From: Ornithinimicrobium pekingense DSM 21552
GTDB taxonomy: Bacteria > Actinomycetota > Actinomycetes > Actinomycetales > Dermatophilaceae
Length of the DNA: 64,000 nt
Reading direction: 5' to 3'
Assembly (NCBI RefSeq): GCF_000421185.1
Contig: NZ_ATWJ01000011.1
Location: 124,001-188,000, forward strand
Below, piece by piece: positions 57,316 through 62,145 of the stretch (positions are counted from its first letter, which is position 1; every line of letters starts with the position of its first letter). The notes beneath the pieces were generated by a model that saw only the letters and a program-made list of their open reading frames with translations, made no database searches and had not been told where the DNA came from. Made by a program: the position numbers and the translations under genes.

Positions 57316-57855
57316 TCAGCCGGTCAGGTCGAGGTCGAGCTGGGCCATGACCATCCGGACCGCCCGCTCGACCGGGTTGGCGATGTCCACGACGATGCCC
57401 CGCTCGTCCGGGGCGAGCATCTCCAGGGTGTCCAGCTGCGACTCCAGCAGCGTGGGCGGCATGAAGTGCTCGCGCGACTCCATACGCTCCAGCAGCAGGC
57501 CCTTGTCCCCGTGCATGTGCACGAAGTAGGTGCCCGCGCCGCCCTCGCGCAGCATCTCGCGGTAGGCGCGGCGCAGCGCCGAGCAGGCCAGGATGGTGGG
57601 CTCGCCGCGGGCGTCCCGCTCGGCCGTCCAGTCGGCGAGGATCCGCAGCCAGGGCCACCGGTCCTCGTCGACGAGCGGGCGCCCGCCGGCCATCTTGTCG
57701 ATGTTGGCCTGCGGGTGGTAGGAGTCGCCCTCGGCGTACTCCCAGCCCAGCCGCTCGTGCAGCGCCCGGGCGATCGTGCTCTTGCCGCACCCCGAGACCC
57801 CCATCACGACGAGGTGGACGGGCGCGCCGGGCACCGGGTCGGGCAGGGGGGTCAT
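57316..57855 (-). CDS. gntK: Gluconokinase
   Basis: A 179-residue P-loop kinase making 6-phosphogluconate. Walker A is VMGVSGCGKSTIARAL, then EGDSYHPQANIDKMAGGRPLVDEDRWPWL, ACSALRRAYREMLR, and EHFMPPTLLESQLDTLE, all typical of GntK. It follows gntP on the same strand with a 70-nt gap, so uptake and phosphorylation of gluconate are coupled. No gluconate regulator is adjacent. Confidence 0.95.
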   Translation of the reverse strand: MTPLPDPVPGAPVHLVVMGVSGCGKSTIARALHERLGWEYAEGDSYHPQANIDKMAGGRPLVDEDRWPWLRILADWTAERDARGEPTILACSALRRAYREMLREGGAGTYFVHMHGDKGLLLERMESREHFMPPTLLESQLDTLEMLAPDERGIVVDIANPVERAVRMVMAQLDLDLTG

Positions 57856-57925
57856 GACGTCACCGTATCGGCACGGTCCAGCGCCGCGGCCGGGGTTGCC
57901 GCCTGTTGCCGGTCGGGCCCGGGGG

Positions 57926-59365
57926 TCATGGCACGAGGTACCAGAGCACCAGCGCGATGACGAAGATCGTCACGCCCAGCGTGGTCTCCATGACCGTCCA
58001 CGTGCGCAGCGTGGTCTTGACGTCCATCCCGAAGAACCGGCTGACCAGCCAGAAGCCGGAGTCGTTGACGTGGGAGAGCACGGTCGCGCCGGCTGCGATC
58101 GCCAGCACCAGGCAGACGACCTTGAGGTCGGACAGGTCGGCGGCGGCCACGCCCGCGGACATCAGGCCGGCGGTGGTCACCAGGGCGACGGTCGCCGAGC
58201 CCTGCGCGACGCGCAGCGCGGTGGAGATGACGAAGGCGGAGACGATGAGCGGCAGGCCGAGGTCGGCCAGGCTGTCCGACAGGGCCGCGCCGATGCCCGA
58301 GTAGCGCAGGACACCGCCGAACATGCCGCCGGCGCCGGTGATGAGGATGATCGCGCAGATCGGGGCGAGCGCGTCGTTGAGCAGGCTCTCGACCGTGGCC
58401 AGCGAGCGCCCGCGGGTGCCGAGCACGTAGGTGGCCACGAGCAGGGTGATGAGCAGGGCGACGGGGGTCTGCCCGACGAAGACCAGGGCGTCCAGGAAGA
58501 CGCCGTCGCCCAGCGTCCCGGCCTGACGGAGCGTGGAGATCGTCGTGTTGAGCGCGATGAGGAGGAAGGGCAGCAGCAGGATCCCCAGGACCAGGCCGAA
58601 GGACGGTGGGGTGACCTCCTCCTCGCCCCGCGCGATCCGCTCGGCCCGGGCGTCGTCGTCGGCGTCGTCGAGGTCGCTGGGCTCGCCCGACATGGTCCCG
58701 CGCAGGATCGAGTCGTTGATCGGGACCATCACCTTGCCGGCATAGGCCTTGGTGAAGAGGTAGACGCCGACGTACCAGGAGGCGAACGCGACCGGCAGGC
58801 CGACCAGCAGCGTGAGGCCGACGGAGCCGCCGAGCTCGGTCGCCGCCGTCACCGGGCCGGGGTGCGGCGGGACGATCGCGTGCATCGCGGCGAAGGCGCC
58901 GGCGGCCGGGATGGCGTAGAGCAGGACCGAGCCGCCGAAGCGCCGCGCCACCGAGAAGATGATCGGCAGGAAGACGACCAGGCCGGCGTCGAAGAAGATC
59001 GGGATGCCGAAGAGCAGCGCCGCGACACCGAGCGCGAACGGTGCCCGCTGCTCGCCGAACCGGCTGATGAGCGTGTCCGCCAGGACCTGCGCCCCGCCGG
59101 TGACCTCGAGCAGCCGGCCGATCATGGCGCCGAGGCCGACGAGCAGCGCCACCGACCCCAGCGTGCTGCCGAAGAAGCTGGTCGCGACCCCGGCGAGCTC
59201 ACCGAACGGGATGCCCGCCGCGAGACCGGTGAGGAAGCTGACCAGGATGAGCGCCACGAAGGCGTGCATCCGCAGGTACATGATGAGGAAGAGCAGCACG
59301 GCGACCGCCGCCGCCGCGATGGTCAGCAGCGTCCCCGCGCCGTAGACGGGTTCCATCGGTTCCAT
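57926..59365 (-). CDS. gntP: Gluconate:H+ symporter (GntP family)
   Basis: A 479-residue permease with about 12 to 14 membrane helices. Family features: ALILVSFLTGLAAGIPFGEL, GSTLGSVALLVGLGAMIGRLLEVTGGAQVLADTLI, FGIPIFFDAGLVVFLPIIFSVARR, PPHPGPVTAATELGGSVGLTLL, and the C-terminal SHVNDSGFWLVSRFFGMDVKTTLRTW. A charged cytoplasmic loop of about 40 residues (GEPSDLDDADDDARAERIA) lies in the middle. GGGAGG precedes ATG 59365. A TAGCGT box lies at 59402-59407 on the minus strand. Confidence 0.95.
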   Translation of the reverse strand: MEPMEPVYGAGTLLTIAAAAVAVLLFLIMYLRMHAFVALILVSFLTGLAAGIPFGELAGVATSFFGSTLGSVALLVGLGAMIGRLLEVTGGAQVLADTLISRFGEQRAPFALGVAALLFGIPIFFDAGLVVFLPIIFSVARRFGGSVLLYAIPAAGAFAAMHAIVPPHPGPVTAATELGGSVGLTLLVGLPVAFASWYVGVYLFTKAYAGKVMVPINDSILRGTMSGEPSDLDDADDDARAERIARGEEEVTPPSFGLVLGILLLPFLLIALNTTISTLRQAGTLGDGVFLDALVFVGQTPVALLITLLVATYVLGTRGRSLATVESLLNDALAPICAIILITGAGGMFGGVLRYSGIGAALSDSLADLGLPLIVSAFVISTALRVAQGSATVALVTTAGLMSAGVAAADLSDLKVVCLVLAIAAGATVLSHVNDSGFWLVSRFFGMDVKTTLRTWTVMETTLGVTIFVIALVLWYLVP

Positions 59366-59460: not shown

Positions 59461-60207
59461 TCAGGTCAGGTCGGAGACCACCCGGGCCACGAGGGCGGCC
59501 TGGGCGTCCACGGCATACCCCGGCAGCTCGGGACCCGCCTGCTCGGCGAGCACCGACAGCTCGGTGCACGCCAGCAGCACCGTGTCGGCCTCGCCGCGCA
59601 GGCGCGCGACGAGGTCGAGGAAGTCGGGCGTGCTGACCGGCAGGCCCGCCTTGACCCCGTCGTAGATGACCGACATCACCTCGCGCTGCCCCGCCTCGTC
59701 GGGCAGCAGCGACCGGGCCCCGAGGTCGGCGAGCGCCTCCTGGTAGACGCCGCTGAGCCGGGTGCCGTCGGTGGCGAGCACCATGACCCGGGGCTGCTGG
59801 GAGCCGCTCTCCCGGGCGCGCGCCACGGCCGCCTGCGCCCCGACCCGCACCAGGGAGAGCAGCGGCAGCGGCAGCTCCTCGGGCAGGAAGGCGTGCGAGG
59901 TGTTGCAGGCGATGACGGCGCAGCTGGCGCCCAGCCGGGCGAGGACCTCGAGGTCACCCATGAGGTAGGGCGTGGGGTCGGGCTGCTCGGGGTCGAGGAG
60001 CCGCCTGGTGCGGTCCGGGACGCCGGCGTGGGAGAGCACGACGGTGTCGATGTGCTCCTGGTCGGTGGCCGCGGGCGTGGCGCGGACGAGCGCGTCGAGG
60101 AAGGCCACCGTCGCCGCCGGGCCCATCCCGCCAAGGACCCCCAGGACCGGGCGGTCCCACGTCCCGGGCAGGAGGCGGCCGTCGGTGCTCGTGCCGTCGG
60201 CAGTCAT
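59461..60207 (-). CDS. Aspartate/glutamate racemase family protein, likely aspartate racemase
   Basis: A 248-residue two-domain racemase that inverts an amino acid with two cysteines and no cofactor. Motifs: VLGVLGGMGPAATVAFLDALVRATPAATDQEH, first cysteine in VIACNTSHAF, second in LLACTELSVL. GGMGPxAT and the short length match aspartate racemases more than MurI glutamate racemases. The ATG overlaps the stop of the ATP-grasp ligase (ATGA), so both are made together. In Enterococcus the aspartate racemase gene is next to the D-aspartate ligase gene, the same pairing as here. Confidence 0.82.
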   Translation of the reverse strand: MTADGTSTDGRLLPGTWDRPVLGVLGGMGPAATVAFLDALVRATPAATDQEHIDTVVLSHAGVPDRTRRLLDPEQPDPTPYLMGDLEVLARLGASCAVIACNTSHAFLPEELPLPLLSLVRVGAQAAVARARESGSQQPRVMVLATDGTRLSGVYQEALADLGARSLLPDEAGQREVMSVIYDGVKAGLPVSTPDFLDLVARLRGEADTVLLACTELSVLAEQAGPELPGYAVDAQAALVARVVSDLT

Positions 60208-61463
60208 GCCGTCACCGGCCGGCGGTAGTGGGTGGCGAAGTTCGTGGTGTAGAGGACGTCGTTCTTGAGCTGGGCCAGCCGGCGCTCCCGGCCGCCGTCC
60301 ACCGCGTAGCGCAGCGGGCGCAGCACCCGTCCCGAGCGCCGGATGCTCGCCAGCCGGGTCCGGGTGGCGGGGTCGGTGACGTAGCGGCGCAGCAGCGGGA
60401 CCGGCACGATCGAGTAGAGCCAGTCGTCGGTCTCGGGCCCGACGTCGACGCCGTCGTAGGGGTCGCGGTCCTCCACGTGCTCGCGCACCAGCGGCGTCAC
60501 GATCGGGTGACCGGCGGCGGCCAGGTAGGCGTGGGAGCGGCCCAGGCGGGGGTTGAGCTCGAAGAAGTACTCGGTGCCGTCGCGCGGGTCGACCTTGATG
60601 TCGAAGTTGGCGTAGCCGGTCCAGCCCGCGTGCCGCAGCAGCCGGGACGCCTCCTCGACCGCGGTGAAGCTGGCCCCGTGGACCACCGCGAGCGGGTTGC
60701 CGATCATCGCGGGGTCGTGGTCCTCCAGCAGCACGTGCCCCAGCCGCCCCCACCGCACGGCCCCGGTCAGGTCGGAGTATGTCGTGAGCACGCGCATCTG
60801 CTCGTCGCCGCCGGGGATACGCTCCTGGACCACGAGCGCGCCCGCGTAGCCGGCCCCGGTCATGGTGCGGCGGAGCGCGCGGAGGTCGTCGAGGTCGTCG
60901 CAGTAGGCGACCTTCTTCTTGCCCTCGTAGACCAGCGTGCTGAAGGAGGAGTCACCCGCCTTGACCACCAGCGGCCAGCGCAGGCCCTCGAGGATCGCCG
61001 GCAGGTCGGCCTCGGGGGCGCCGGCGGGCACGGCGCGGGTGACGGGGTGGGCGACCCCGACCTCCTCGCACAGCGCGGCGAAGCCCTCCTTGTCCGACAG
61101 CCGCTGGATGAGCGGCAGCGGCGGGTAGGGCACCACGAAGCGCTCGTCGAGGCGGTCGCGCAGCCCCGCGATGCGGGTCACCCACGTGTCGACCGTGCCC
61201 ATGAGCAGGACGCGGTGGCCCTCGCGCCGGTCGGCGATGCCGCGCAGGCAGGCGAGCAGCTCCTCGTCGTCGTCCATGCCGGGAAGGCGGACGTTGTCGA
61301 CGATCGCCGACCCGCGGACCGCCGACGGGACGGTGCGGCTGACGACGGTGGTGCGCACGCCCAGCTCGGCGTGGAAGGCGCGGGCCAGGGTGTAGGTGGC
61401 CAGCTCGCCGCCGAGCACGACGGGCACGAAGGGGACGGTGTAGTCGTGCACGGGCCGGGACAT
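60204..61463 (-). CDS. ATP-grasp ligase resembling D-aspartate ligase (AslA)
   Basis: A 419-residue ATP-grasp enzyme. It follows the D-aspartate ligase of enterococci along its length: PVVLGGELATYTLARAFH at the start, YEGKKKVAYCDDLDDLRALR, VVQERIPGGDEQMRVLTTYSD, RLGHVLLEDHDPAMIGNPLAV, and the metal-site segment WTGYANFDIKVDPRDG then FFELNPRLGRS. That enzyme adds D-Asp to the side chain of the third residue of the peptidoglycan stem, starting a cross-bridge. With a coupled aspartate racemase this points to a D-Asp (or D-Glu) bridge, A4 type. TACGCT (61471-61476, minus) ends 7 nt before the ATG: leaderless. Confidence 0.78.
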   Translation of the reverse strand: MSRPVHDYTVPFVPVVLGGELATYTLARAFHAELGVRTTVVSRTVPSAVRGSAIVDNVRLPGMDDDEELLACLRGIADRREGHRVLLMGTVDTWVTRIAGLRDRLDERFVVPYPPLPLIQRLSDKEGFAALCEEVGVAHPVTRAVPAGAPEADLPAILEGLRWPLVVKAGDSSFSTLVYEGKKKVAYCDDLDDLRALRRTMTGAGYAGALVVQERIPGGDEQMRVLTTYSDLTGAVRWGRLGHVLLEDHDPAMIGNPLAVVHGASFTAVEEASRLLRHAGWTGYANFDIKVDPRDGTEYFFELNPRLGRSHAYLAAAGHPIVTPLVREHVEDRDPYDGVDVGPETDDWLYSIVPVPLLRRYVTDPATRTRLASIRRSGRVLRPLRYAVDGGRERRLAQLKNDVLYTTNFATHYRRPVTA

Positions 61464-61470
61464 GGCCGGA

Positions 61471-61476
61471 AGCGTA
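61471..61476 (-). promoter_or_regulatory. -10 box of the ligase-racemase operon
   Basis: TACGCT on the minus strand, 7 nt before the ATG at 61463, with no ribosome binding site. Confidence 0.45.
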
Positions 61477-61491
61477 CCGGCAGCACCCTGG

Positions 61492-62145
61492 TCAGCCCTG
61501 CACGTCCAGCCAGCCCTCCCCCTCGCTGCCCGGCACGATCTGCGCCTCCCCGGAGGTCAGCCCGGCCAGCAGGCCGGGCAGGTCGTCGGCGGCCACGGCG
61601 TCGCTGACCACCGGGACCTGGACGCGCAGGGTGACGCGGTCGGCATACCCGATGTGCGGCACGCCGATGCCCCTGGCGCGCAGGTCGTGCTCGAGGCGGC
61701 CGGCGAGGTCGTGCCCGACGCGCACGTCGACCTCCCGGACGCGCACCCGGGTCAGGACCTCCGCCTCCTCGACGGCCGCGCGCACCGCGTCGGAGTAGGC
61801 CCGGACGAGGCCCCCGGTGCCGAGCAGGGTGCCGCCGAACCAGCGGGTCACGACGGCGATCACGTCGGTGAGCCCCGAGGAGGTCAGCACCTGCAGCATC
61901 GGCGTGCCCGCGGTGCCGGCCGGCTCGCCGTCGTCGTTGCTGCGCACGGTCGCGCCGTCGGGCCCGAGGACGAAGGCCGAGCAGTGGTGACGCGCGTCCC
62001 AGTGCGTCGTGCGCGCCTCCTCCACGACCGCCCGGGCGGCCGCCTCGTCGTCGGCGCGGCGCAGCCAGCACTCGAAGACCGACCGCTTCTCCTCGGTCCG
62101 CGCCACGACGGGGGCGGCGACCGTGCGGTAGCTCGAGGGCTGCAT
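61492..62145 (-). CDS. IMPACT/YigZ-family protein
   Basis: A 217-residue protein. The N-terminal UPF0029 domain (about 1-125) has KRSVFECWLRRADDEAAARAVVEEAR, HHCSAFVLG, SNDDGEPAGTAGTPMLQVL and VVTRWFGGTLLGTGGLVRAYSDAV, the family signature. A C-terminal DUF1949-like half follows. Bacterial members bind nucleic acid or help translation control; the role is not established. TACGCT (62152-62157, minus strand) ends 6 nt before ATG 62145, so the message is probably leaderless. Confidence 0.9.
   Translation of the reverse strand: MQPSSYRTVAAPVVARTEEKRSVFECWLRRADDEAAARAVVEEARTTHWDARHHCSAFVLGPDGATVRSNDDGEPAGTAGTPMLQVLTSSGLTDVIAVVTRWFGGTLLGTGGLVRAYSDAVRAAVEEAEVLTRVRVREVDVRVGHDLAGRLEHDLRARGIGVPHIGYADRVTLRVQVPVVSDAVAADDLPGLLAGLTSGEAQIVPGSEGEGWLDVQG

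Follow-up and report, generated by a model that had tools for sequence, protein, structure and literature searches.

A ligase-racemase pair in Ornithinimicrobium pekingense, predicted to place D-aspartate in the peptidoglycan cross-bridge, shares a chromosomal slot with a racemase-less sister ligase

We analyzed a 64,000-nucleotide stretch of the genome of Ornithinimicrobium pekingense DSM 21552 (here called the window). On its minus strand lies a gene for a 419-aa ATP-grasp ligase with an ATG start (60204 to 61463), followed on the same strand by a gene for a 248-aa two-cysteine protein of the Asp/Glu racemase family (59461 to 60207). The two genes overlap at an ATGA, with the racemase ATG at 60207 to 60205 and the ligase TGA at 60206 to 60204, and both frames are intact. 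This layout, including both cysteines, is the one that an earlier sequence-only reading had described. We predict that the first gene encodes a D-Asp:peptidoglycan-precursor ligase, of the type called A below, and that the second encodes an L-Asp/D-Asp racemase. Outside this cassette, the conserved right flank of the slot is a UPF0029/YigZ-family gene on the minus strand (61492 to 62139, the stretch tested), and the left flank consists of the gluconate permease gene gntP (57926 to 59365, minus strand) and gntK (57316 to 57855). Among 31 Ornithinimicrobium genomes surveyed, the pair is retained in all 7 that bear an A-type ligase, and thus the pairing is not due to chance. The closest named genome in the scan was that of O. 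tianjinense, with 66% ligase identity.

The segment directly upstream of the ligase (61464 to 61476, minus strand) holds a −10-like TANNNT hexamer (61476 to 61471), 7 nt before the ATG. We found TANNNT exactly 7 nt upstream of an in-frame ATG in 4/4 A-type congeners examined as well (L202 to L205). The hexamer itself varies among these five genomes, being TACGCT in three and TATTTT and TAATTT in the others. This conservation supports a leaderless promoter for the cassette, as had been proposed from the window alone. Because the ligase comes after yigZ on the same strand, read-through from yigZ is also possible.

The racemase matched PF01177 (E value, 1.4e-33; 116.9 bits against a cutoff of 31) and TIGR00035 (140.8 bits; cutoff, 93.1), and among solved structures it comes closest to the aspartate racemase 1jfl (E value, 6.8e-32). 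Both catalytic cysteines, C101 (AVIACNTSHA) and C214 (VLLACTELSV), are present and align with 1jfl. The racemase scores above asp_race with the cysteate-racemase model CuyB (NF052483), yet its 174.9 bits fall below the CuyB cutoff of 190. We rejected a cysteate-racemase role based on this score, since the racemases of L. curvatus (185 bits) and Cellulomonas flavigena (218 bits) score still higher. The C. flavigena racemase (L238, 5403 to 6056), which exceeds the CuyB cutoff, adjoins a D-Asp-type ligase in a species with a D-Asp wall. The CuyB model probably misnames such ligase-linked racemases.

The ligase matched no curated equivalog and gave weak CPS/ATP-grasp profile matches alone, and it has no close solved structure. 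In a protein search of a plasmid collection, the ligases of three lactobacilli matched it with 26.5 to 29.9% identity over 96% of its length (E values, 2e-37 to 3e-45). These three lactobacilli have D-Asp walls. A racemase gene lies directly upstream of the ligase in L. curvatus, and the ligase neighborhoods checked in L. crispatus and L. fermentum contain none beside the ligase. We modeled the structure of the window ligase from 64 sequences (pLDDT, 93.6; pTM, 0.91). Foldseek ranked the L-amino acid ligase 3vot first, followed by other ATP-grasp enzymes, at 12 to 19% identity. E302 and N304, the E-x-N of ATP-grasp ligases, are invariant in the 64 sequences, and we take them to be the metal-binding E-x-N of the window ligase. 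In alignment, the ELNPRLGRS loop of the ligase corresponds to the EMNPRVSRS motif of carbamoyl phosphate synthase; residue 310 comes directly after R309 of this loop. The L-amino acid ligase BL00235 (3vot), PylC (4ffl), and carbamoyl phosphate synthase have the ATP-grasp fold and carboxylate activation in common with the window ligase but differ in their substrates, with structural-match identities in the range just given.

The known precedent for the window pair is the aslA-racD pair of lactic acid bacteria. A review (PMC4155827) describes AslA as attaching D-Asp, in the form of beta-aspartyl phosphate, to L-Lys and places racD and aslA in one operon in L. lactis. In aslA-racD of L. lactis and with Aslfm of Enterococcus faecium, an ATP-grasp ligase is likewise coupled to an Asp racemase in hosts with D-Asp walls. 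The window ligase was compared with the lactobacillar relatives, to which its homology extends over 96% of its length. Unlike these systems, the window cassette has the order ligase-racemase with an ATGA overlap and belongs to a separate actinobacterial clade. Cassettes of the window type also differ in their predicted ornithine or DAP acceptors and in standing where relatives have a sister ligase that lacks a racemase.

We built a quick, unrooted maximum-likelihood tree of 162 ligase rows from loci L003 to L141. Clade A (SH-aLRT, 90) contains 72 actinobacterial rows, including the window ligase, and 68 of them have an adjacent racemase gene. Clade B (SH-aLRT, 100) contains 65 rows, none of which has one. 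The unlinked clade A rows are L014, L017 (which has little space downstream), L020, and one Nesterenkonia copy. Over the whole tree the racemase label changes 6 times, compared with 54.5 times when shuffled, a figure that shows clustering only, as the loci were picked by similarity to the window ligase with near-copies included. The window ligase sits within clade A on a long stem, and its nearest neighbors inside A are uncertain. The lactobacillar ligases fall outside both clades and are more distant from A than B is, with the reservation that the tree is unrooted and quick and has long branches. The AslA clade named in the earlier reading would thus hold for the family at large and, in this tree, not for an exclusive clade, since the rows from lactic acid bacteria lie outside the A-plus-B group. 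Among other members of the family, Nesterenkonia ebinurensis (L099, 4775 to 9298) has three ligases close together, none adjoined by a racemase gene, and Dermabacter and Helcobacillus have second ligases at 32 to 33% identity.

The two clades also differ in a small set of residues. All 68 racemase-linked A rows have S or T at position 310, and all 65 B rows have N there. Clade B additionally has N90, T221, and S225 (65/65 each) and T237 (62/65). S310 occurs in 4 rows from lactic acid bacteria and Subdoligranulum, in 3 from Oceanobacillus, in the 4 unlinked clade A rows, and in all 16 rows of a group of its own, drawn chiefly from clostridia and Eggerthellaceae, of which 12 are racemase linked (one being L016 of family f1) and 4 unlinked. 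We then read 129 further rows, many of them from the same genomes as the first set, and found S or T at 310 in 50/50 linked rows and N310 in 76/79 unlinked rows. The remaining three unlinked rows, L234 (Beutenbergia cavernae), L236, and L237, have a third pattern (SDATVVS and similar). Because this pattern is found in the L-Glu-bridged B. cavernae and two relatives, these ligases are a possible L-Glu ligase class. Our guess, from an unrooted tree, is that S310 is the older state and N310 the derived one. Ligase-racemase pairs were also observed in Eggerthellaceae and Clostridia (L093, L098, L107, L111, L113, L116, L117, L124, L130, L132, and L136), which suggests D-Asp bridges there.

In surveys of whole genera, we called A and B by score against the window ligase and read the signature at the fetched loci. 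The ligase is present in 30 of 31 Ornithinimicrobium genomes, always as one per genome, and the racemase is present in 7, which are exactly the A-type ones; no genome contains both A and B. In three of these genomes (G002, G008, and G021) the ligase is in two overlapping or adjoining pieces, perhaps through sequencing errors or as pseudogenes. Of 81 Cellulomonas genomes, 79 have the ligase, three of them with two (G473, G474, and G476); the racemase occurs in 21, the same 21 that have the best-scoring ligases, and adjoins the ligase in each. All 38 Brachybacterium genomes have a family ligase, with two matches in 36, and the 15 with a racemase are the same 15 that have the best-scoring ligase. 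One Brachybacterium genome (G508) had four ligase matches, along with raised contamination. An order-wide draw gave the ligase at an E value of 1e-25 or better in 169 of 347 genomes.

In the genomes read from all three genera, the A cassette occupies the position in which relatives have the B ligase. In the window and in 4/4 other A-type Ornithinimicrobium genomes read, the cassette is on the yigZ strand and directly adjoins yigZ, with copC and DUF3073 beyond. In 4/4 B-type genomes read, a racemase-less ligase lies beside yigZ-copC-DUF3073 on the opposite strand, and the far side of the slot has gntK in three and gntP in one. In a distant B subgroup of the genus, the ligase is in the usual slot in 1/6 genomes and elsewhere in 5/6 (L210, L211, and L213 to L215). 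The Ornithinimicrobium flank tree is too weak to separate one exchange from several. Brachybacterium avium and Brachybacterium faecium are collinear, with flanking genes 74 to 93% identical. Their first slot is occupied either by an A ligase with its racemase or, in the opposite orientation, by a B ligase (38% identity), and their second slot contains a B ligase in both species. The Brachybacterium flank tree (17 of 18 loci) requires 4 label changes, each of them imposed by branches with good support, and places Brachybacterium vulturis, a B-type species, beside the A-type B. avium. In the Cellulomonadaceae group, the ligase, A or B, comes after the same 6-phosphogluconate dehydrogenase gene in 40/40 loci compared, and the label changes 4 times, 2 of them forced by well-supported branches; two Isoptericola loci of this set, with B then A in the slot, were counted as A. 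The slot thus adjoins gluconate genes in two settings, gntK/gntP in Ornithinimicrobium (window, 57316 to 59365) and 6-phosphogluconate dehydrogenase in Cellulomonadaceae (L238, 2450 to 4072). Some genomes contain both types. Isoptericola and Xylanimonas have a B ligase in tandem with an A cassette (L061, L063, L064, L066, L258, and L261), with Q303 in the B copy where read, and Promicromonospora carries both A and B ligases.

We paired published wall statements with genomes for 12 species, 5 racemase positive and 7 negative. Among the racemase-positive species, the sources give D-Asp for C. flavigena, L-Orn-D-Asp for C. bogoriensis, L-Lys-D-Asp for X. cellulosilytica, Asp (a composition, not a bridge structure) for B. 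avium, and L-Orn-D-Glu for C. carbonis. The 7 negative species have the ligase without an adjoining racemase. For these, the sources give L-Lys-Ser-D-Glu for S. keddieii; L-Lys-L-Glu for B. cavernae; Orn, Ala, Gly, and Glu for O. sufpigmenti and O. faecis and no Asp for B. faecium and B. vulturis (compositions, not bridge structures, for these four); and, for A. subterranea, some Asp in the hydrolysate (0.55), with none reported for the bridge. For B. cavernae and A. subterranea the search for a racemase covered only the surroundings of the ligase, and S. keddieii does not appear among the 92 genomes matched in the racemase check. In these sources, Asp is in the wall of 4/5 racemase-positive species and is a bridge residue in 0/7 negative ones (Fisher P = 0.010, with kinship ignored). 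The sequence-only reading had called for such a survey of pair against wall type. The disagreement is C. carbonis, which has a single ligase, A type with a racemase, and is listed with D-Glu. Outside the count, Cellulomonas fimi, C. uda, C. gelida, and C. hominis have D-Glu walls. Pengzhenrongella, also outside the count, agrees at the genus level (B ligase in P. frigida; genus given as L-Orn-D-Glu), and published statements give Asp-containing walls for A. ferrariae, A. fermentans, and A. solisilvae, again outside the count. The literature drawn on was PMC9973731, PMC3035266, PMC8878594, PMC11165906, PMC6113628, PMC6090031, PMC3035206, PMC3035249, PMC4155827, PMC3035217, PMC11839211, PMC3035225, and PMC3544764. 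In the open-access literature we found no wall composition for the window's species or O. tianjinense and no wall data for most Isoptericola, Promicromonospora, and Cellulomonas species.

From the pairing, the clades, the residue signature, the slot, the co-occurrence, and the agreement with published walls, we infer the substrate and acceptor of the ligase, the substrate of the B ligases, and the direction of exchange. Very probably, the window pair makes D-Asp and fixes it in the cell wall cross-bridge, and exchange of cassettes in the slot would alter the wall chemotype. According to this model, the racemase would convert L-Asp to D-Asp, and the ligase would use ATP to activate D-Asp to an acyl phosphate and join it to the bridge-acceptor amino group of a cytoplasmic peptidoglycan precursor, either the L-Orn side chain or a Gly on L-Orn. 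D-Asp would then carry the cross-link. We predict that the wall of the window species contains ornithine with D-Asp in the bridge. The sequence-only reading had the pair attach D-Asp to the third stem residue; a D-Asp ligase and racemase remain the best reading, but the acceptor need not be the third residue. Ornithinimicrobium bridges hold Gly before the acidic residue. It had also allowed for D-Asp or D-Glu, and here we narrow the prediction to D-Asp, as Glu bridges go with the racemase-less sister clade.

The B ligases of Micrococcales belong to the same family and, in the genomes read, the same slot, with one per genome in Ornithinimicrobium. They differ from A in having no racemase and in N90, T221, S225, N310, and mostly T237, and their hosts have Glu rather than Asp bridges where known. 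They are probable D-Glu ligases and would perform the same step as the A enzymes with D-Glu in place of D-Asp, so that a swap of the cassette would change the wall chemotype. The racemase would travel with A only because D-Glu is already made for the stem and D-Asp is not. We argue for functional replacement because the two types use one slot and do not occur together in any of the 31 Ornithinimicrobium genomes.

Racemase linkage could instead be a phylogenetic marker only, with the wall agreement a coincidence of few, related species. The 12 species do come from few genera, the Fisher test ignores their kinship, and on the Brachybacterium tree 41/500 shuffles cluster the label at least as much as observed, while it is strongly clustered on the ligase tree. 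We nevertheless consider this unlikely, as the label needs 4 changes on the Brachybacterium flank tree and two species close together on it differ as expected, B. avium having Asp and an A ligase and B. vulturis no Asp and a B ligase. It is more doubtful still that the pair feeds D-Asp into a product other than peptidoglycan, such as a secreted peptide, an osmolyte dipeptide, or a nonwall conjugate. The best-ranked solved fold is indeed a dipeptide ligase (3vot), and none of the flanking genes tested is a wall gene, but the ligase is present in nearly every genome of the three genera surveyed (30/31, 79/81, and 38/38), A and B never co-occur in the 31 Ornithinimicrobium genomes, and the A type accompanies Asp in the walls as published. 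Least probable of all is that the ligase adds D-Glu, or both residues, beside a racemase for glutamate or cysteate that has no part in the wall, a reading that draws on the CuyB scores and the D-Glu listing of C. carbonis but is opposed by the reported D-Asp of C. flavigena itself, by a CuyB model that does not discriminate (the L. curvatus racemase also scores highly), and by the clade split and residue signature.

Against the D-Asp reading we counted the C. carbonis listing, the tandem of A and B in X. cellulosilytica and Isoptericola, the presence of both types in Promicromonospora, the Asp of A. subterranea, the four unlinked A ligases, the two of three lactobacillar ligases without a racemase, the position of the lactic acid bacteria outside A, and the CuyB score above that of asp_race. 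Because of the tandems, ligases and residues do not stand in a simple one-to-one relation. A rule of one ligase per bridge residue fits Brachybacterium, with its two matches in 36/38 genomes, and fails in X. cellulosilytica, which has two ligases and an L-Lys-D-Asp wall; we rejected it.

We found no earlier description of the cassette swap or the residue code in the open-access literature. An assignment of a D-Asp or D-Glu ligase in Micrococcales was likewise not found in open-access titles and abstract openings, a weak sign of novelty, as subscription journals were mostly outside this search. On balance, we favor the view that the acidic residue of A4-type bridges is set by one slot, in which a D-Asp cassette and a D-Glu ligase replace each other in Ornithinimicrobium, in Cellulomonas/Actinotalea, and repeatedly in Brachybacterium, and that residues 90, 221, 225, 237, and 310, with the third pattern in the L-Glu-bridged Beutenbergia, are a specificity code that predicts wall type. 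The definition of actinobacterial genera has long drawn on peptidoglycan type, and the acidic bridge residue is a classical taxonomic marker. If our view is true, the bridge residue would be predictable from sequence through one slot and a small number of residues, which would also point to the D-Glu ligase of Micrococcales. Wall type seems to change by the in-place exchange of one cassette, and this may account for the differing wall chemistry of close species.
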